64,000 nucleotides of DNA from Fibrobacterota bacterium (GCA_947482115.1 CANKII010000007.1:1-64000), one strand, 5' to 3'; counted from the first letter of the stretch, positions 34,133 through 55,139 are shown. Numbers and translations: made by a program. The notes: generated by a model from the sequence alone, not told the origin.

Positions 34133-34146
34133 ATGTTTTGATTTGT

Positions 34147-34182
34147 CCTTGTAGGGGCAACCGGCCAGTTGCCCCTACAAGG
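34147..34182. repeat. Palindromic element A2 (GTAGGGGC family)
   Basis: Perfect 15-bp arms CCTTGTAGGGGCAAC (34147-34161) and GTTGCCCCTACAAGG (34168-34182) around a 6-nt centre. It lies between two convergent genes. The TAG inside its right arm, read on the minus strand, is the stop codon of the VanZ-like gene. Confidence 0.88.
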
Positions 34183-34627
34183 ATTCGCGATTCATAAAAA
34201 CTGAAAACAGTACCCCAATCATTCCACCTGTTGTATTTCCAATCACATCACTGACGGTTGCAAACCGTGTTTCTGTGAATAGCTGCAGAAATTCGATAAG
34301 GATGCTGAAAAGGCATGCCAGCAAAACCAACAGTAGGGGTCGGGTTATCCGACCCCTACTGTTGGAAAATTTGTCGCCCATGGCCCTGTATCCAAAAAAA
34401 CCGAACGGAAAAAACAAGGCCAGATTAATGGGGTAGTCCGCCAGATTGCGCTTGGAAACGGTGTGATTGCTGAAGACAATCTTGGGAAAACGTTGAATGT
34501 GTTCCGTGCGAAACCGGAAATATTCCGCATTGAAGTGGTAGCGGAAGGGAAACTGGGTGGCCGCCAGCAGGAAGAGCGCATAAGCCACCCACAAAATCCG
34601 CCATTCTTTTAAAGACAGTTTCGGCAT
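34175..34627 (-). CDS. VanZ-like membrane protein with in-frame palindrome
   Basis: A protein of about 150 residues with VanZ-family features: hydrophobic helices (ILWVAYALFLLAATQFPF, then LALFFPFGFFGY and LLLVLLACLFSILIEFLQLF) and the signature ETRFATVSDVIGNTTGGMIG. VanZ was first known from teicoplanin resistance, but most homologues have no proven role. Palindrome A3 sits inside the gene and is translated as NSRGRITRPLLL, in the loop before the third helix. Palindrome A2 supplies the stop. The start at 34627 is chosen because a longer reading would overlap the divergent oxidase gene; it is not fixed by a ribosome site. Confidence 0.72.
   Translation of the reverse strand: MPKLSLKEWRILWVAYALFLLAATQFPFRYHFNAEYFRFRTEHIQRFPKIVFSNHTVSKRNLADYPINLALFFPFGFFGYRAMGDKFSNSRGRITRPLLLVLLACLFSILIEFLQLFTETRFATVSDVIGNTTGGMIGVLFSVFMNRESL
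34327..34365. repeat. Palindromic element A3, inside the VanZ-like gene
   Basis: Perfect 17-bp arms CCAACAGTAGGGGTCGG (34327-34343) and CCGACCCCTACTGTTGG (34349-34365) with loop GTTAT. It is 39 bp long, a multiple of three, and keeps the minus-strand gene open. Confidence 0.88.
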
Positions 34628-37148: not shown

Positions 37149-37185
37149 GACCGGTAGGGGTGGGGTTATCCCGCCCCTACCGGTC
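37149..37185. repeat. Palindromic element A4 (GTAGGGGC family)
   Basis: 16-bp arms GACCGGTAGGGGTGGG (37149-37164) and CCCGCCCCTACCGGTC (37170-37185) with one T-G wobble and loop GTTAT, the same loop as A3. It is intergenic, 7 bp after the isomerase-like gene. Confidence 0.88.
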
Positions 37186-46104: not shown

Positions 46105-47967
46105 TTAATCCCCCCTGAAATAGCCGCGCAGGCCGCTGTGACGCGGCACACGTTCCCGGAGGGATTCAAGCAGGGCGGCTTCGGACCCGAAGATGTCTGC
46201 AGTCTTGCGGGCGCGGGTGACGGCGGTGTACAGGATTTCGCGGGTCAGGAGGCGGTTTCCGGCCTCCGGCAGCACCAGCAGGATGGCATCGCACTCCGAA
46301 CCCTGACTCTTGTGTACGGTGGTGGCAAAGGCCAGTTCCCAAGGCGGCAGGAAGGCCGCAGGGAAGCGCAGCCATTCTCCACCGCGCCGAAAGCAGGCGG
46401 TGAGTCCGGCCGAACCACGCAGCCAGATTCCGATCTCGCCGTTGGAAAGACCGGTACGCATGTCGTTCCGGGTAATGAGCAGCGGCGCTCCGTGGAACCC
46501 TCCGAAGTCCCGGATTCCGGTTCGCTCTTCAAACAGGGGTTCCAGTTTTCTGCGGGCCAAAGTATTCACACGTTCACATCCAAGTCCGCCATATCGCGTG
46601 CAAGCGAGAATGCGCGAGGCATCGAGAAATTTGAACAGGCAGGTGAGGATTTGATTTTCCTCTTCCGGTGTCAAAGGATTTCGTAAAGCACGAAGGCATT
46701 CCACATAGGTGCGGCCGTCGATGTGTTGTTCCAGAAAAAGGGATTGCGCATACCGCTGAATGAGATCGGGAAGTGCGGCGGGATAATCTTCATCCGGCGC
46801 CGACAAGCGCGGCTTTTGCAATACCGTATCCGCATCGCCCTTGTTGATGGCATCAGCAAGTTCCAGAATGCCGGAGACGGATCGATGGCTTCGATCCAGA
46901 ATCACCGTGGGAATGGTTTCCAATGGAAACCGTACTTCTTCGTGCGGATTATTTTCCGGGAAGCATTCCGAAATCCATTTCCAGCTTTCAGGGCTGAGAC
47001 CCGGTTGCCGGTTTGTCGGTAATAATTCGCTGAGGATCGAACCGGCTTCCACGGCGGGAAGTTGATCTGCATCACCAACCAGAATGAGCGTGGTTTCCAG
47101 AGGCAATGCCTGAATCAATGCCGACAAGGTGAAGGCGTCGGCCATGGAGGCTTCGTCGAGCAGCACCAAATCGGCCTGTAACGGATCGCCGGGATTGCGC
47201 GCGAAGCGTCCATTGGAAGGTTGATAACCCAACAAGCGATGCAAAGTTTCCACAGGGATTTGCAACAGCTTCCCATCGGGATTGTTCGCATCCGGCTCTG
47301 TTTGGGAAATCGATCTCAAATTGTTGTGCAACGATTCCTGCAGCCGTTGCGCGGCACGCCCTGTAGGCGCACACAGACGAATGCGATGTGGTGCCAGATT
47401 GCGAAGACGGATCAAAGCACGCAACAGGGAAGTGGTCAATGCGGTTTTTCCCGTTCCCGGTCCGCCGGTAAGCAGGAAAATTCGTTCACGGGTCGCAGCA
47501 GCCAATGCCCATTTCTGCCGTTCGGTCAATTGAATGGGAACCGAATCCGCACCCTGTGTTCGCAAGGGCTTTGTTTCCAGAATTTCCTGAAACACAGATC
47601 GAGCGGTTTGAAGATCTACGGAAATAGGATCGAGTCGTAATCGGGAAAGTAACCCTTCCGCCAGATTTTTTTCGGCGTGAAAATGACGGTGAAAATACAA
47701 TCGGTTTTCATGCAGAATTAATGGTTTGGATTCGGATGGAGACCCCTGTAGGGGCAACCCATGGGTTGCCCCTACAGGGGCCAACAAATTCACGGGCAAA
47801 CACAGGCTGCCTTCGGCACAGGCCAATGCCAGATCGGTCAATACGGTGCGCAGGGATGTATCGTCCGGTGTCCCTGACATTTTGCACAGCATATCCACAA
47901 TGCGAAGATCCGCCGTATCGAGGATTTCCTTTTCCTGTTTTTCTTGACCAACGGAAATCGGATTCAT
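46105..47967 (-). CDS. recD: RecBCD helicase-nuclease, RecD subunit
   Basis: A 620-residue SF1B helicase subunit of exonuclease V. Walker A is LLTGGPGTGKTAL (about 165), Walker B reads LVLLDEASMAD, and the C-terminal motif is ATTVHKSQGSECDAILLVLP. It is the fast 5'-3' motor of the complex. Palindrome A5 lies in frame and is translated as APVGATHGLPLQG at residues 63-75, within the N-terminal region that contacts RecC in known structures. The ATG overlaps the recB stop (ATGA). Confidence 0.95.
   Translation of the reverse strand: MNPISVGQEKQEKEILDTADLRIVDMLCKMSGTPDDTSLRTVLTDLALACAEGSLCLPVNLLAPVGATHGLPLQGSPSESKPLILHENRLYFHRHFHAEKNLAEGLLSRLRLDPISVDLQTARSVFQEILETKPLRTQGADSVPIQLTERQKWALAAATRERIFLLTGGPGTGKTALTTSLLRALIRLRNLAPHRIRLCAPTGRAAQRLQESLHNNLRSISQTEPDANNPDGKLLQIPVETLHRLLGYQPSNGRFARNPGDPLQADLVLLDEASMADAFTLSALIQALPLETTLILVGDADQLPAVEAGSILSELLPTNRQPGLSPESWKWISECFPENNPHEEVRFPLETIPTVILDRSHRSVSGILELADAINKGDADTVLQKPRLSAPDEDYPAALPDLIQRYAQSLFLEQHIDGRTYVECLRALRNPLTPEEENQILTCLFKFLDASRILACTRYGGLGCERVNTLARRKLEPLFEERTGIRDFGGFHGAPLLITRNDMRTGLSNGEIGIWLRGSAGLTACFRRGGEWLRFPAAFLPPWELAFATTVHKSQGSECDAILLVLPEAGNRLLTREILYTAVTRARKTADIFGSEAALLESLRERVPRHSGLRGYFRGD
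47743..47780. repeat. Palindromic element A5, inside recD
   Basis: A perfect 38-bp palindrome: 18-bp arm CCCCTGTAGGGGCAACCC (47743-47760), centre AT, and its exact complement to 47780. It is read through by recD as about 13 residues without a stop. Confidence 0.9.
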
Positions 47968-50900
47968 ACCAGCACCTCCGATTCCGTTTTCACTCCAAGA
48001 ATATTCCGCAACCGAGCTGGATAGATTTCGCGCAAATCCATTAGGCTCGGTTTGTAATTAAATCCGCTGAATCCATTGGGGGATGCACCGCGCAGGTAGA
48101 TGTAGAACACACCACCGAAATGAAGTTCGGGATCATAGCTGTCCTGCAAAGTTGCCCGTAACCATTTGTCCAAGGCCACCGAATAGAGCTGGTATTGAAG
48201 ATCATAATGATGCTTGCGCATGTCCGCTTCAATATCGCCCTTGCCGTATCGATCCAGTAAATTGGATTTCCAATCCAGCAGGTAATAGCGTCCTTGATGG
48301 CGAAACACCAGGTCCATGAATCCCCACAGAAATCCGTTTTGCAGGCGGGTTCCTTCCAATAAAGGAAGAGTGGAAAAATTGGATTGGGCTAACTCCTTAA
48401 ATGGAAAAAGAAATTCCATTTCGTGGACTCGTTCAGTGATGGGTACGGAACCGAGTTGAAAAGATTTCCGGCTATTTGAATTGTCACTAAGATTGGACAA
48501 CGGCATATGCAAAGTATTCCACACCAGTCGAATCGCTGCTGCCGCATAATTTTCCGCAAGCCCCTGGCGTCGCAAAATGTTTTTTGCTGTTTCAAAGATA
48601 CGAGTATCTTCGATTAAACTCTCTACATCTGGAGCTTGATTCACCAAGGCGAAGTCTAAAGTTTCAAATAATTCATGTAGAGCGTTACCGGTGTTTGCTC
48701 CCGGCGGCAAATCCTGTGCAGAAACTGTTTCCATTGCATTTACGGGTAAGTCTTCGGCTTCACCTTCTTCGCGGTTGACTCTGCGCCCATCTTCTTCCAA
48801 TGCCGTAGCAGCTTCACGTCGCAACAATTGCGAATAGGAGGAAAGCCGGCGACGACGATCCAGAAAAAAGGCTCCGGCCTCCTCCCACGGATCTTTTTCC
48901 GGAAATTCCGAAACCTCAACGCCTGTCGCATCCTTGCGAATGTGGATTGCGGATGGAGTGGAAGGCAAAAGGGATTCGTCGATCCGGAATAATTCGGGAT
49001 GGTCGTTGCTCGCCGCACGCAGAGCCTCTGCAGCGAAACCACCCATGGGTCCTGATCCGGATCGCGAGAATTTTTCCGGAAGCAAAGGCGCGTACAACAA
49101 TGTTTTGGCGCGTGTGAGTCCAACATAGAACAGGCGCTTGTCTTCATTCGTCATGCGTTGCTGATATTCGAGTTCTGTCTGTTCGTTTTCCTTGTCCAGC
49201 ACATGCCGAAATTGTTTTTCATCGCGCAGGGTATAGAAGGCGGGTTTGCGGCTGTCGCTCAAGGCGGCCAGAAAGACCACGGGAAATTCGAGTCCCTTGC
49301 TCATGTGCAAGGTCATGATGGTGACGCGATCTCCCACATTTTCATCCATCTCTCCACCGGTATTTTCGCCTTCACCATCGCGGAGGGCATCGAAACGTTC
49401 GAGTAAACCGTTCAGGGTGCGCGCGGTTTTCATTCCTTCTTCCGTCAACGTGCGTGCCAACGTGCGGAGGATTTGAACTTCGGATCCGCCGCGAGTTTCT
49501 GCTGCGACCCGGTAGAGATAACCCGTATCGTAAAACAGGGATTGAAAAAACTCCGGCCATTTCCCATCGTGTGTCAATGCGGCCCATCGGCGAATCGGTT
49601 CCGGGCATGTTTCGGGAAAACCCTTGGGCCAATTCGCTGCAGTATTTCGCAGAAAAGGAAGCAACAAGATTTGCGCCTGTACGCGCGGGTCTTCCACCGA
49701 CTCCAGCAATGTGAGCAGCAAATGAATTTGATCCGCCTGAACACTGTCGAACACACCTCCGCGTCGTTGAACGCGACAAGGAATTCCCTGTCGCCGCAAA
49801 TGCCTTTCCAAGGCCGCAGCCTCCGGATTGGTGCGCGTCAATACGGCAATGTCTTTAAGAGGAAAATCCTTGGCCATCAACAATCCGATTTCGGAAGCGA
49901 TCCAGATGTGAACCGCTTTTTGAGCATCGCCTTTGGATGTGCAACCACTGAAATCCCGCAGTGTTACTGGCGCATTGGAGTCCAATGCGCGCCCCCCTTC
50001 GGAGGGTTTGGGGGGCACTAGCGCAGATGTGAAGACAATTTCATCTGAATTGTCCGGCAGTTTCCAGGAGCCGGCTTTGTTTTCTTCTTCTGAAAATTTG
50101 AACCAAACGGGTTGTGAAAAGACTGTGTTCAAGGCATGAATCAGTTTATGTTGCGAGCGAAAATTTTCCTTGAGCCCTGTCCCCTGTGCTTTTCCCTTTG
50201 CAGCCATTTCATGAAGTAAGGCACGTGCATCCAGATAGGTACGCAAATCGCCACCGCGAAAACCGTAAATGGCCTGCTTGGGATCGCCCACCAGAAAGAG
50301 CGGCAGAAGTTTTTCCTGTTCTGAATCCCCGAGGCACAATCGGCGCAGCAAATCCCATTGCAACGGATCCGTGTCCTGAAATTCGTCCACAATGCAGGCG
50401 TTGTATTTCTCGCGCAATTGGGCGACCAGATTGGGTCGGGCTCGTATAGCCTGAACCAAGCGCAATACCATGTCATCATAACTCAAGACGCCGTGTCGCT
50501 TCTTTTCCCAAATCAATCGTTCCCGCAACTCTTCGACCGATTCTGCGATCAGAGTGAAGGATCGCAGCCGGTTTTCTTCCTTCCAGTTTTTGGAAGCGTT
50601 GAGAAATTTTTGACAGGTTTCAGCGAGATGAACCCATTGTGGATTCTTTGCGGCGGTTTTGGTCAGACAAGTGACGAATCCACTTTTTACCGCTTTATTG
50701 TTGGGGCGGAAACCGATAAATAAATCGGCCAAGCTCTTTGTTCGATCCGAAAAATCCTGTGATGTGACACGTTCCATCCGGTCCCGGATTTTTTGGAAAA
50801 CACCCCTGGGTAATTTCAAGTCGAACACATTGAAGACGTCAAACAGATTTTTCGCACAACCACTCAATTCTTGAACGGATTTTTGCAGACGTTCAGGTGA

Positions 50901-51491
50901 AACGCGAGGCTGAATGACATCGCCGCGATCGGGTTGATAAGCCAATGCAATGGACACGAGATGTTTACGCCAATCGGAAGGACCTTTTGCCAGCACCGTG
51001 AGAAGTTCTCTTAAACGCGCCTCGTCCTTTGCCCATGGGCCGCGCAGCAATCCGTCCAAAGCATCGTTGAGCAGGGCACGATCATCTGCGACTTCGCTGT
51101 CGAACAAGGTTCCATTGTCCAGTGCATGTGCCCGCAGCACGGAATGGCAGAATCCGTGCAACGTGTGAATCGAAGCTTCGTCGCAACGCAAATGCGCCTC
51201 GAAGAACCGTTCCCGTTCTAATGCAGTCCAGAATGTGTTTTTACTTTCCGTCTTCAACCGCTCACGAATACGCTTGCGCAAATCCGCGGCGGTTTTTTCC
51301 GTGAAGGAAAGCAGCAACAGGGACTCGAATTTCCAGTCCGGTTTTTCCGCCACAAAACGCAGCACCAGATGTTCGATGGCATAGGTTTTCCCCGTACCTG
51401 CGGAAGCTTCCAGCAAAGCTGGAACATCCAGATTCAGATCAGCCACCAATTGTGGGAAGGAATCTGGCCAAGTGCTTCTGAGACGTTTCAT
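47964..51491 (-). CDS. recB: RecBCD helicase-nuclease, RecB subunit
   Basis: A 1175-residue SF1A helicase and nuclease. Walker A is EASAGTGKTYAIEHLV (from residue 28), Walker B-like VDEFQDTDPLQW is mid-protein, and motif VI-like GLTRAKTLLYAP follows. The C-terminal nuclease has FMDLVFRHQGRYYLLDWKSNL, split here as FMDLVF and YLLDWKSN (about 1072), the conserved RecB nuclease core. It processes double-strand ends for RecA loading. Palindrome B4 is translated in frame as VPPKPSEGGRA near 490-502. The ATG overlaps the recC stop. Confidence 0.96.
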   Translation of the reverse strand: MKRLRSTWPDSFPQLVADLNLDVPALLEASAGTGKTYAIEHLVLRFVAEKPDWKFESLLLLSFTEKTAADLRKRIRERLKTESKNTFWTALERERFFEAHLRCDEASIHTLHGFCHSVLRAHALDNGTLFDSEVADDRALLNDALDGLLRGPWAKDEARLRELLTVLAKGPSDWRKHLVSIALAYQPDRGDVIQPRVSPERLQKSVQELSGCAKNLFDVFNVFDLKLPRGVFQKIRDRMERVTSQDFSDRTKSLADLFIGFRPNNKAVKSGFVTCLTKTAAKNPQWVHLAETCQKFLNASKNWKEENRLRSFTLIAESVEELRERLIWEKKRHGVLSYDDMVLRLVQAIRARPNLVAQLREKYNACIVDEFQDTDPLQWDLLRRLCLGDSEQEKLLPLFLVGDPKQAIYGFRGGDLRTYLDARALLHEMAAKGKAQGTGLKENFRSQHKLIHALNTVFSQPVWFKFSEEENKAGSWKLPDNSDEIVFTSALVPPKPSEGGRALDSNAPVTLRDFSGCTSKGDAQKAVHIWIASEIGLLMAKDFPLKDIAVLTRTNPEAAALERHLRRQGIPCRVQRRGGVFDSVQADQIHLLLTLLESVEDPRVQAQILLLPFLRNTAANWPKGFPETCPEPIRRWAALTHDGKWPEFFQSLFYDTGYLYRVAAETRGGSEVQILRTLARTLTEEGMKTARTLNGLLERFDALRDGEGENTGGEMDENVGDRVTIMTLHMSKGLEFPVVFLAALSDSRKPAFYTLRDEKQFRHVLDKENEQTELEYQQRMTNEDKRLFYVGLTRAKTLLYAPLLPEKFSRSGSGPMGGFAAEALRAASNDHPELFRIDESLLPSTPSAIHIRKDATGVEVSEFPEKDPWEEAGAFFLDRRRRLSSYSQLLRREAATALEEDGRRVNREEGEAEDLPVNAMETVSAQDLPPGANTGNALHELFETLDFALVNQAPDVESLIEDTRIFETAKNILRRQGLAENYAAAAIRLVWNTLHMPLSNLSDNSNSRKSFQLGSVPITERVHEMEFLFPFKELAQSNFSTLPLLEGTRLQNGFLWGFMDLVFRHQGRYYLLDWKSNLLDRYGKGDIEADMRKHHYDLQYQLYSVALDKWLRATLQDSYDPELHFGGVFYIYLRGASPNGFSGFNYKPSLMDLREIYPARLRNILGVKTESEVLV
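49987..50024. repeat. Palindromic element B4, inside recB
   Basis: C6 and G6 tracts (GCCCCCC 49991-49997; GGGGGGC 50010-50016) flank CTTCGGAGG, with outer GCGC boxes pairing at 49987-49990 and 50021-50024. It is a shorter member of the C-tract/G-tract family found three times in recC. The recB frame stays open. Confidence 0.78.
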
Positions 51492-54400
51492 GATTCGTCG
51501 TCTCCGACTTCATCCCATCCGTTTTTCCACTGGAGATAGGGAAGAATACGACGACGGATTTTTACACCTGCATCGGTGGGAACTTCCGGTTCAATGCTGC
51601 GCAGAATACGGGAACGTTTGCCCCCCCTTCCCCCCATCGGGGGGTTGAGGGGGGCAAACGCAGACTCCTCGTCCTCACGTTCTTTCTCTTCAATCAGTTC
51701 TTTCCAATCCTCATTATTTGGAAGGTTGTCAAAATCCTTCCCAACGATCTTTTCGATTGTTTGCAACGGAAGATGATCGAAATCCGGCACGTGGCCGGCA
51801 TCATCCAGAATGGATTTTAGATCCCGAGCCGCCGTTTTTGGATCCAGTTTCGGAAGCAGGAATATTTTTTCGGTATCCGGTGAAAGAATATAACCGGGGC
51901 CGGAGAAATTCTTTTCCGAGTCCAATGCTGCAACACATAAATGAAAGAGATAGGCGAACAGGATTTCCCGATCATGGGCTTTTTCGTCAATGCATAATCC
52001 CCATCCACCTTCGGAACCCTTGCCCTTGAAAAACAAAGGTACCGTACCTTGGATTAAAGCGGGTATCCCCATTGTAGAGGCATTGAATGCGGGATAATCG
52101 AGTATAGGCGGTTCCAGCAATTGCATGCCTTGCCCACCCAAGCGCAAGGTTCCTGCATAGTGAAGTCCGAGGCTTTGAATTGCATCGCGAAGGTCTGCGA
52201 TTTTATTTTCCAGAAAATTCTCCGCTTCAACGCGAAGTGTTTCCATTTCCAAATCCGCATAAAGTCCGGGTGGACCTTGTCCGTTCCAAATCTGACGCTG
52301 CAGCGCAAGCAGTACCGCATCCTTGCCTTGTCCGGGTTGAACGAATTCCACACGCAATCCGGTTTGTAAAAGCTTTCCGGTTTCCCATTTGTTCAGAAAC
52401 AAGGGCTGCGATTGTTCCCCGTCATCCCGCGAAGCGTTTAATCGAAAGTGTTGAAAACACGCATGCTCTGCGGGGTTTTGCAAAAACATGGTGAGATGGC
52501 GAAGATCCCAAACTGGCGTTTCCACCTCTGGAAGCTCGGCCCACTTCACAGGCGTTGAAGAAGGGTAATGCGATGCGACAAGCGTACGTGCATCGGCTTC
52601 GGAAAGATTCGAGTGATGTGTAATGGCCTTCATTCGCAACGTTTCCACACGAGGACGCGGAGAAGAGGAATCTGTGGAACGCCCATCCGAATCGAGTTCC
52701 ACGATTTGAAAACTTGTACCATGAGGAAAAATATCCGATTCCAAATAAGCGATCAATCCGGCCAAAGCCTGTGAAGGCTGACGAACGCTATCTCGTGCCG
52801 CATCCCGTCGTACATAGGAGAGCATCAGACATTCTGAAGTGGTACTGATGGATTCCAGAAAGGCATATAGATCGCGTGTTGCCGGATCTGCCTCGCCCAG
52901 AACACGACGATACCCGCGCAAATCCAAAGGCGATGCTTCGCGCGAAGCGGGGAAATCTCCGGCATTCAATCCCAGGATGTAAACATGTTTGAAGGGGAGG
53001 CTTCGCAAGGCGTTCAGGCTGCCGATGCGCACGCCGCCTTGCAGGAATGGCATGCGCACTGAGCGCGGATCGCGAAAGTGATCTTCCAGCAAAACTGAAA
53101 TGGCGTGATGGGAAATGCCCTGCACGCTTTCCCAATGTGCAAGGTCGGCGCAAAAGCGGCGGAGATCGGCCGCAGCCTGAATTTCGAGAGGTTGTTCCGA
53201 ATCCACCGCGAAATAGTTTTCGAGCAGACGCAACAACCATTCGCTCCATTCCTTAAAGGAAAGGATTTCACCGGAGCGAAAGGGGCGAAGATCGTTGCGC
53301 AGATTTTCCAGCAATTCCAGACATCGCGATAATTCTTCGCGGTCCCATCCGGCGACGGCATTTGCTGCCGGATGAAAACCCGCCGTTTCCAGATTCGCGT
53401 CGGTGGGATCGAGAATCAGTCCCAGCAAAGCCCGTTGTATCGCCGCTTCGGCGGTGGAAAGACTTCCGGGAATGGAATCCTGATCCGGATATTCATCATC
53501 CCATCCTTCTTGAAAGCCGGAACGTTCCAGGAAATTTCCGAAAGCTATAATCGTGCCTCGATTAAGCCGCAGACGTTTTGACACGGTGGAATTTTCAATC
53601 CACTTGACAAGTTCATGGCGTCGAAATGTTCCCGCTCCCAATGCCATGAGATCGCGGAAACCCCGCAACAATGCGCTTTCACTCAGCATGCCCGCTTCGG
53701 GAAGACAATAAGGAACGTAGCCCGCGCCCTTCCCCCCCGATCCCCCCATCGGGGGGTTAGGGGGGAGGGCGCTGAATACCGTTTCGATGACAGGCAAATA
53801 TTCTTCGAAGTTTGCGGGGATGATGGCAATGTCTTCCAACCGTAAATCTTTATCAGTGAGCAGCAATTCCGCAATGCGCGCTTTGGCGGACTCCACTTCG
53901 GCATAACGATCCGGGGCGGAGAAGATTTGCAACGAAGCATCTTGCGCTTTCCGCTCTTCAGCAATAAGCGGTCCTTGTCGATGCAGCACTGCGCCTTGCA
54001 CGGTGTTCAATAATGTGTTGCTTTCCGGCTCTTTGAAACAAGATTCAAAATCGTAGTCGGTGATCTGACTCCAAAGCTTGATCGTTTCTCGTCCCGGTTT
54101 TCCAAGGCGACTCAATAAAGCATTTTCCTCGGATTCAAAAGGCAGTTCTTCCTCTTGTAGCTCCGCATCGCTTAATCGTCGCTTCGATATTGTTGTGTCT
54201 TCCCAATATTCCGCGCAGGGGTTGAGTGCATAAATTTCGAAGTCGGCCGTTTTATTCCCCAATAATTTTTCATCACCAAGTCGATAGATCAAGGCGCGAT
54301 GGAAAGGGGAGATGTGGGATAAGCCAAACAAATGAAAAGTGGGAACACTCTCCCCCCCAACCCCCCGAAGGGGGGCTTGGGGGGTACGTGTTTGATTCAA

Positions 54401-55078
54401 CACCATTTCAGCGTACTGGGGCAAAGTGTAGCGATACACTCCAGACGCTTCGCCCCAACGATCTCTCAATCCGCCTTCACGGAATAAGGCCTGATAAATC
54501 TCGCGCTGCCATTCCTCCAGCTTACGGACTTGATTGCGCTGACTGGAGGAAAATTTGGGACCGCGATGGTATTGGTCAAAACAATTTTCACCGCGACTCC
54601 ACGTTTCCGCGAGACCTTTGAATCCACCTTCGGAAACACGGCTGTATTCGTATTCCCGGAATAGTGAGGCGAGACGCCCGGACAATTGACACAGACGACG
54701 GGCCTCGTCATAAGGTTCGCCGTCTTCCGGTTTCAAATAATGTTTCAAAGCCGCCGGTCCGCCTTGAGAGGACAACCACGTCAGAATCATTCCTTGAAAA
54801 TTCAGCGTATCCAAAAGTCTGGCAGGTTGACGATCTTCTGCATTTCGGAAATGATCCAGTTCCGCAAGCCGGTTCCAGAGCAGCTTTTCCAGATGTGGGA
54901 ATTTCAGGTTGGCGGCAATGCCCAACTTCTCCGCCATGCGGATTTGCAGCCAGCCGCGCAGGGCGGATGAGGGCGTGGCAATGTCCGGTGGATTAAACGG
55001 GTCGTTTCCGCCCAAGCCCTGAATCAACCTTTCGGCGAGGGCGTCCAGGGAATTGCTGAAATACAGGCGGGATGGCAT
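51488..55078 (-). CDS. recC: RecBCD helicase-nuclease, RecC subunit
   Basis: A RecC of about 1196 residues, the Chi-recognising subunit with inactive helicase folds. Family-typical pieces are the N-terminus LYFSNSLDALAERLIQGL, VFHLFGLSHISPFHRALI-like text (seen as FHLFGLSHISPFHRALI) and GGVRIGSLNALRSLPFKHVY. It carries three in-frame palindromes: B3 (TPQAPLRGVGGES, about 229-245), B2 (LPPNPPMGGSGGKG, about 436-452) and B1 (APLNPPMGGRGGK, about 1140-1155). The ATG at 55078 is chosen; a TTG at 55087 would add three residues. It is first in a recC-recB-recD-cyclase operon with 4-bp overlaps. Confidence 0.94.
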   Translation of the reverse strand: MPSRLYFSNSLDALAERLIQGLGGNDPFNPPDIATPSSALRGWLQIRMAEKLGIAANLKFPHLEKLLWNRLAELDHFRNAEDRQPARLLDTLNFQGMILTWLSSQGGPAALKHYLKPEDGEPYDEARRLCQLSGRLASLFREYEYSRVSEGGFKGLAETWSRGENCFDQYHRGPKFSSSQRNQVRKLEEWQREIYQALFREGGLRDRWGEASGVYRYTLPQYAEMVLNQTRTPQAPLRGVGGESVPTFHLFGLSHISPFHRALIYRLGDEKLLGNKTADFEIYALNPCAEYWEDTTISKRRLSDAELQEEELPFESEENALLSRLGKPGRETIKLWSQITDYDFESCFKEPESNTLLNTVQGAVLHRQGPLIAEERKAQDASLQIFSAPDRYAEVESAKARIAELLLTDKDLRLEDIAIIPANFEEYLPVIETVFSALPPNPPMGGSGGKGAGYVPYCLPEAGMLSESALLRGFRDLMALGAGTFRRHELVKWIENSTVSKRLRLNRGTIIAFGNFLERSGFQEGWDDEYPDQDSIPGSLSTAEAAIQRALLGLILDPTDANLETAGFHPAANAVAGWDREELSRCLELLENLRNDLRPFRSGEILSFKEWSEWLLRLLENYFAVDSEQPLEIQAAADLRRFCADLAHWESVQGISHHAISVLLEDHFRDPRSVRMPFLQGGVRIGSLNALRSLPFKHVYILGLNAGDFPASREASPLDLRGYRRVLGEADPATRDLYAFLESISTTSECLMLSYVRRDAARDSVRQPSQALAGLIAYLESDIFPHGTSFQIVELDSDGRSTDSSSPRPRVETLRMKAITHHSNLSEADARTLVASHYPSSTPVKWAELPEVETPVWDLRHLTMFLQNPAEHACFQHFRLNASRDDGEQSQPLFLNKWETGKLLQTGLRVEFVQPGQGKDAVLLALQRQIWNGQGPPGLYADLEMETLRVEAENFLENKIADLRDAIQSLGLHYAGTLRLGGQGMQLLEPPILDYPAFNASTMGIPALIQGTVPLFFKGKGSEGGWGLCIDEKAHDREILFAYLFHLCVAALDSEKNFSGPGYILSPDTEKIFLLPKLDPKTAARDLKSILDDAGHVPDFDHLPLQTIEKIVGKDFDNLPNNEDWKELIEEKEREDEESAFAPLNPPMGGRGGKRSRILRSIEPEVPTDAGVKIRRRILPYLQWKNGWDEVGDDES
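51615..51660. repeat. Palindromic element B1, inside recC
   Basis: Outer arms CGTTTGCCCCCC (51615-51626) and GGGGGGCAAACG (51649-51660) are exact complements. Inner tracts CCCCCC (51630-51635) and GGGGGG (51639-51644) enclose ATC. It is translated on the minus strand as APLNPPMGGRGGK. Confidence 0.88.
53724..53772. repeat. Palindromic element B2, inside recC
   Basis: Outer arms GCGCCCT-TCCCCCC and GGGGGGAGGGCGC pair with one bulged T. Inner CCCCCC-ATC-GGGGGG matches B1. It is translated as PPNPPMGGSGGKG. Confidence 0.86.
54344..54392. repeat. Palindromic element B3, inside recC
   Basis: Core CCCCCCC-AA-CCCCCC-GAA-GGGGGG-CTT-GGGGGG at 54352-54384, with flanking AACAC/GTGTT also complementary. 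It is translated as TPQAPLRGVGGES. It is a sister of B1, B2 and B4. Confidence 0.82.
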
Positions 55079-55090
55079 GGGTTTCAAAAG

Positions 55091-55139
55091 TAATCGCTCA
55101 TCTCGATACGGCCTTTCAGGCCTACTCGATGAGCGATTC
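55091..55139. repeat. REP-like element C1 upstream of recC
   Basis: Outer arms AATCGCTCATC (55092-55102) and GATGAGCGATT (55128-55138), a non-complementary middle (TCGATAC/TACTCGA) and an inner GGCCT-TTC-AGGCC hairpin. It lies 13 bp before the recC start. Confidence 0.7.

Follow-up and report, generated by a model that had tools for sequence, protein, structure and literature searches.

Coding palindromes with C/G-tract cores in recB, recC and other genes of a Fibrobacterota bacterium

Introduction

How short palindromes come to be translated within conserved genes, and how their arms come to pair at every site with a different sequence, are the questions raised by recB and recC in a 64-kb stretch of DNA from a Fibrobacterota bacterium (GCA_947482115.1, CANKII010000007.1:1-64000; hereafter the window), which is contig C7 of the source genome assembly G000 (2.72 Mb, 99% complete). 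An earlier note on this DNA had described four C-tract/G-tract hairpins inside the two genes and likened them to the palindromic elements of Rickettsia. Here, these hairpins were compared with those elsewhere in G000 and in the same-genus relatives G001, G002 (the closest) and G003, and L-numbers such as L072 label sampled DNA stretches. The hairpins are lineage-specific protein-coding palindromes that work like the Rickettsia palindromic elements (RPE) and the Wolbachia palindromic elements (WPE), to which no homology is claimed.

Results

The four hairpins, and a further palindrome that adjoins the first of them, are located in the window as follows:

49986..50025, minus strand: B1, in-frame hairpin of recB with degenerate C/G tracts, read as VPPKPSEGGRA, arms TGCGC/GCGCA
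51615..51660, minus strand: B2, in-frame C/G-tract hairpin of recC (PLNPPMGGRGGK), arms CGTTTG/CAAACG
53724..53772, minus strand: B3, in-frame C/G-tract hairpin of recC (PPNPPMGGSGGK), arms GCGCCCT/AGGGCGC
54344..54392, minus strand: B4, in-frame C/G-tract hairpin of recC (TPQAPLRGVGGESV), arms AACAC/GTGTT
49970..49990, no strand assigned: palindrome GCGCATTGGA-g-TCCAATGCGC in recB, 10-bp arms, abutting B1 and sharing its left arm

The full core, namely C6-7, spacer, C6, 3-nt loop, G6, spacer and G6, is present in B2, B3 and B4, and the core of B1 is degenerate, with a single C6/G6 pair and an imperfect inner tract. The outer arms pair with each other at each hairpin and differ in sequence from copy to copy; the outer stem of B2 is perfect over 12 bp (CGTTTGCCCCCC/GGGGGGCAAACG). 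Folding energies between -23 and -46 kcal/mol were predicted for either strand. The reading frames run through all four hairpins, one in recB and three in recC, without stops, and the peptides given by the earlier note were found; its description of paired C6/G6 tracts with copy-specific complementary arms can likewise be read directly, with B1 as the degenerate case. Three cores were observed in recB and recC together, as compared to a mean of 0.125 and a maximum of 2 in 2000 synonymous-codon shuffles, and therefore codon usage does not explain the hairpins. Moreover, the palindrome that abuts B1 overlaps its left arm, so that GCGCA/TGCGC follow three times in succession in recB as a compound palindrome.

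The host genes, together with recD, form a group of three minus-strand genes spanning 46105-55087:

46105..47967, minus strand: recD, TIGR01447, above cut-off
47964..51491, minus strand: recB, NCBIfam TIGR00609, matching E. coli RecB chains over the full length
51488..55087, minus strand: recC, NCBIfam TIGR01450 and PF04257, match to E. coli RecC 1w36_C

The matches to TIGR00609 and TIGR01450 are full length yet lie under the NCBIfam curated cut-off, and the nearest solved structures to the two proteins are E. coli RecB and RecC. An inverted repeat, AATCGCTCATC...GATGAGCGATT, is located at 55092-55138 immediately upstream of recC and might serve the recCBD operon as a regulatory site.

RecC was aligned with homologues from the three same-genus and seven more distant genomes, and RecB with those from seven of these genomes. 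The peptides of B1-B4 were absent from every aligned homologue, in the genus and farther away. The same peptides in relatives, which the earlier note had named as the sign of an ancestral protein feature, were thus sought and not found; since same-genus and same-family homologues lack them, the peptides are not ancestral, and this origin was rejected. Net gains relative to G002, counted on the alignment, were 10 amino acids for B3, 8 for B2, 5 for B4 and 3 for B1; in other hosts they were about 6 for SufD, 7 for MnmE and 8 at one point of RecG. The reading frame picks up again on both sides of the insert in RecC, RecB, SufD, MnmE and RecG. Of what the earlier note had anticipated from such alignments, the absence of the peptides from relatives was borne out and clean gaps exactly at the element borders were not, the gap borders being inexact at base level. 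The insert in recG of G000, which is also of the C/G type, follows WVVPRI (L173:2870-2920); recG of G002 (L234) has, farther downstream, a RAPVGAPD segment with GTAGGGGCG, a remnant of the GTAGGGGCG type.

The family is not confined to recB and recC. Copy counts for G000 rest on pattern searches, model searches and sampled stretches. The pattern C5-N2..5-G5 gave 32 matches in G000 as compared to 8 for the reversed control, 3 versus 0 in G002, and control levels in G001 and G003. For C6-N3-G6 the figures were 7 versus 1 in G000, with one match each in G001 and G002 and none in the remaining 58 genomes searched. A covariance model recovered the same G000 loci and added a few related ones. By our count there are about 21 C/G-hairpin loci in G000, and the family is nearly absent from the three same-genus relatives. 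About 16 of the roughly 21 copies are genic, in frame on the reading strand of unrelated conserved genes, and the remainder are intergenic. Genic hosts are recB, recC (three copies), polA, the glyRS alpha-beta linker, sufD, sua5, rarA, uup, mnmE, hrpB, yidC, penicillin amidase, two ABC proteins and a bat gene junction, the hrpB copy (L078:4048) being weak and the N-terminal yidC copy uncertain. Coding density in the sampled stretches was 91% according to a home-made gene caller, so the hairpins are just mildly depleted in genes.

The hairpins occur in a single form, with C-N-C-N-G-N-G tracts, and in a double form (mnmE, polA, sua5 and one ABC gene), in which half an element is followed by its reverse complement, e.g., CCCCCGAACCCCCAGAGGGGG/CCCCCTCTGGGGGTTCGGGGG. 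A more stringent pattern, C6-GAN-G6-N3-G6, which recC of the window contains three times, matched only 27 stretches among about 85,000 other species; we read most of these as plain G runs and about five as element-like. Genuine look-alikes of the C/G core are few elsewhere, and a Patescibacteria contig (L260:2503-2526) with CCCCCCGAAGGGGGGTTAGGGGGG is among them. A text search of the literature by sequence gave no match for GAAGGGGGTTAGGGGG; GTAGGGGC matched 440 papers, of which those listed were unrelated.

Palindromes of other families are also scattered in G000, those of the type CCCCTTCCCC... among them. An inverted-repeat scan of 621 kb of G000 detected family A (GTAGGGGC...GCCCCTAC) and a third palindrome family, CCCCTTCCCCTC(aa/tt)GAGGGGAAGGGG. 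Family A has 24 copies in the scanned part of G000, genic and intergenic, with site-specific complementary arms of 0-11 bp, and six copies with arms of 1-9 bp in the sampled stretches of G002 (564 kb and a few loci). Its copies in the window are:

47743..47780, minus strand: in-frame palindrome of family A in recD, CCCCTGTAGGGGCAACCCA/TGGGTTGCCCCTACAGGGG (APVGATHGLPLQG), with 19-bp arms free of mismatches
708-744, 34146-34183, 34327-34365 and 37149-37185: intergenic family A palindromes with distinct, perfectly complementary outer arms of 4-6 bp

Alignment of recD with its relatives gave no clear gap at the family A palindrome, and insertion at this site was not demonstrated. The earlier note missed this second family in recD and elsewhere, as well as the nesting of hairpins within palindromes and the evidence on the origin of the arms. 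An inverted repeat of a different type (TTCGACTCCGCTCA...TGAGCGGAGTCGAA, 14-bp arms, 30-bp loop) is located at L072:1727-1784. Four IMG/VR viral contigs (L264-L267) contain GTAGGGGCG-N7-CGCCCCTAC palindromes, and therefore family A or a look-alike occurs beyond this lineage.

The site-specific arms of the C/G hairpins exceed what chance flanks provide: pairing summed over the hairpins' own flanks was 114, as compared to 69.9 (sd 6.4) for permuted flanks, and none of 20,000 permutations reached as high a value. Many single hairpins have extra pairing arms, and so do nearly all copies of family A. Many single hairpins are flanked by inverted, not direct, repeats, the nearest relative being too distant to define a target duplication. 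The C/G hairpin of L072 lies within the loop of a palindrome resembling the uninterrupted L077:6011 (CCCCTCTCCCAT[tac]ATGGGAGAGGGG), and that of penicillin amidase (L079) within the loop of a TGTTGGGGCGG palindrome resembling the uninterrupted L191:7873; the two longest arm pairs are accounted for by this nesting in palindromes of other families. As for family A, 11 of the 24 copies with arms of at least 4 bp have arms of at least 7 bp; were the palindromes random, the probability of this would be about 1e-11 or less. Random pre-existing palindromes are ruled out as the source of its arms by these lengths, unless an enzyme selects long ones. Furthermore, in a glycosyltransferase-like gene (L180:8187-8270; G002 orthologue L205), the same codons hold a family A palindrome in both G000 and G002. 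Its arms differ between the species and pair with each other in each, forming stems of more than 20 bp (-51 and -49 kcal/mol). This site may have been rewritten symmetrically over time, or new palindromes may have landed in old ones, and both may occur. Taken together, the arms, the nesting and the palindromes at this one orthologous site suggest template-switch (snap-back) synthesis, nested insertion, or both.

Discussion

The dispersal of in-frame palindromes with a shared core in conserved genes whose homologues lack them is what characterizes RPE and WPE. The likeness to Rickettsia drawn in the earlier note is therefore upheld by in-frame copies in unrelated conserved genes, and it extends to Wolbachia. 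As here, RPE are in-frame palindromes in many unrelated protein genes, which they do not inactivate, with several families per genome and orthologues that carry different elements near one spot (PMC10969869, PMC3767692). They differ in being about 100-150 bp long (PMC3767692), whereas the cores described here measure about 24-60 bp, have C/G tracts and site-specific arms, and belong to an unrelated lineage. WPE-like palindromic regions also lie in frame in the double-strand-break repair helicase-nuclease genes addA and addB, as well as in priA (PMC4224334), but these regions span about 170-840 nt and concern AddAB, in a survey of 12 recombination genes, whereas RecBCD is affected here. The palindromes of nematomorph mitochondria are likewise perfect coding inverted repeats with identical arms and species-level gain and loss, for which template switching was proposed (PMC6649704); there, however, both arms are host coding sequence and no core is shared, whereas a core recurs here. 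The GC clusters of yeast mitochondria (GC42) are small, G+C-rich, palindromic elements resembling transposable elements, which merge and relocate by a mechanism that is unsettled (PMC4478555); a repeat of the kind described for them was not recognised here, where no systematic search for it was made. Repetitive extragenic palindromes (REP), associated with TnpA_REP/RAYT, resemble the present families as short multicopy palindromes, and family A contains the GTAG motif. Here, by contrast, GTAG lies inside the stem and most copies are genic rather than extragenic. A Y1 transposase (PF01797, REP-associated) was found in none of the four genomes G000-G003, with control genomes positive and other transposase families not searched; membership in a REP/RAYT system was therefore ruled out.

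We propose, with about an even chance of being right, that a small family of C/G hairpins spread in one genome and that snap-back template switching builds their site-specific arms. According to this proposal, non-coding C/G-tract hairpins would have spread in G000 by some route, into genes and between genes, often landing in the middle of palindromes, perfect or imperfect, that were already there. Surviving genic copies would be those that are in frame and stop-free in tolerant linkers and loops. The hairpin would then allow the copied strand to fold back on itself, with its own flank serving as the template (quasipalindrome template switching), which would build or repair complementary arms and keep the palindrome intact while its sequence changes. 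Arms that pair mutually though they differ from site to site are what template switching would leave, and published work reports that this process gives rise to hairpins and preserves them (PMC8794818) and that it can alter coding sequences (PMC8604942). Mobility, which the earlier note had inferred, is favoured by copy number and lineage-specific presence; neither an enzyme nor a target duplication was seen in its support. Several observations weigh against the proposal. The search for a mobilising enzyme, which covered Y1 transposases, found none, and the double hairpins are without extra arms. The net gains in RecB and RecC (3 to 10 amino acids) are below the size of the whole element, i.e., a core of 24-34 bp plus arms. 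Additionally, identity to G002 in these proteins is only about 60-80%, too low to fix the borders or the native arm, and there is no strain-level empty site; at several sites, polA and penicillin amidase among them, the surrounding linker is hypervariable and would hide a clean gap.

Among the alternatives, some transposase or integrase might insert the hairpins into palindromes already present, at their loops, much as some insertion sequences enter REP sequences, the arms being the target. Two C/G hairpins do lie in loops of palindromes of other families, and insertion of insertion sequences into REP palindromes has been published (PMC1525189). We nevertheless consider this unlikely, as the arms of family A far exceed the lengths expected of random palindromes, short of a strong preference of the enzyme for long ones, and Y1 transposases, the family searched for, are absent from G000-G003. 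It is also doubtful that nothing moves and that template switching, recurring at quasipalindromes rich in G or C, makes each hairpin locally, with the core as mutational convergence. The small and variable net gains, the partial alignment of the MnmE and RecG hairpins with native G002 sequence and the compound palindrome next to B1 would fit such a local origin, but the C-N3-C-N3-G-N3-G layout, its spacers alike, is repeated at about 21 loci of this genome and hardly in relatives, and the 8-bp GTAGGGGC core is common to many family A sites in two genomes. That the hairpins are RNA structures selected for regulation in the recBCD message is very improbable despite the high predicted stability of the stems on the mRNA strand: the same family occurs in polA, glyRS, sufD, mnmE and other unrelated genes, which makes regulation specific to recBCD unlikely, and it is absent from recBCD of several relatives. 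Ancestral Gly/Pro-rich segments or an assembly artefact can hardly be credited, for although all four hairpins lie in variable protein stretches, the peptides are missing from all aligned relatives, the frames are intact, synonymous shuffles do not reproduce the hairpins and a similar one is present in recD of G002, a separately assembled genome.

With regard to where the C/G hairpins accumulate, recB and recC hold 4 of the approximately 21 copies in 7.1 kb (P about 4e-7 under uniform placement, a post hoc value, the cluster itself having prompted the test). The sole C6/G6 hairpin of G002 lies within its recD, which we count as independent support for recBCD as a target; no C/G hairpin was found in recBCD of G001, G003 or the sister genus. 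In Wolbachia, the survey of 12 recombination genes found WPE-like palindromic regions in frame in addA (three), addB (two) and priA (two) (PMC4224334), and an RPE is present in a Rickettsia recB-family exonuclease (PMC3767692). The concentration may simply reflect that long, loop-rich, fast-evolving proteins tolerate inserts. More speculatively, and with low confidence, the process might be self-propagating: the element would be a short core for which snap-back synthesis writes arms from host DNA, palindromes would nest and rewrite proteins, and genes for the helicase-nucleases that act on broken DNA ends, recBCD in this bacterium and addAB in Wolbachia, would be favoured targets or unusually tolerant ones in unrelated bacteria.

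In the literature found, coding palindromes had been described from Rickettsiales and some mitochondria; here they occur in an unrelated lineage, in several families and with visible nesting. The concentration in recBCD, paralleled in addAB of Wolbachia, is a concrete and checkable hint, and the origin and movement of coding palindromes become testable by comparison of strains. Should the arms prove to be written on site, the case would link selfish DNA to template-switch mutagenesis as an origin of new protein segments.
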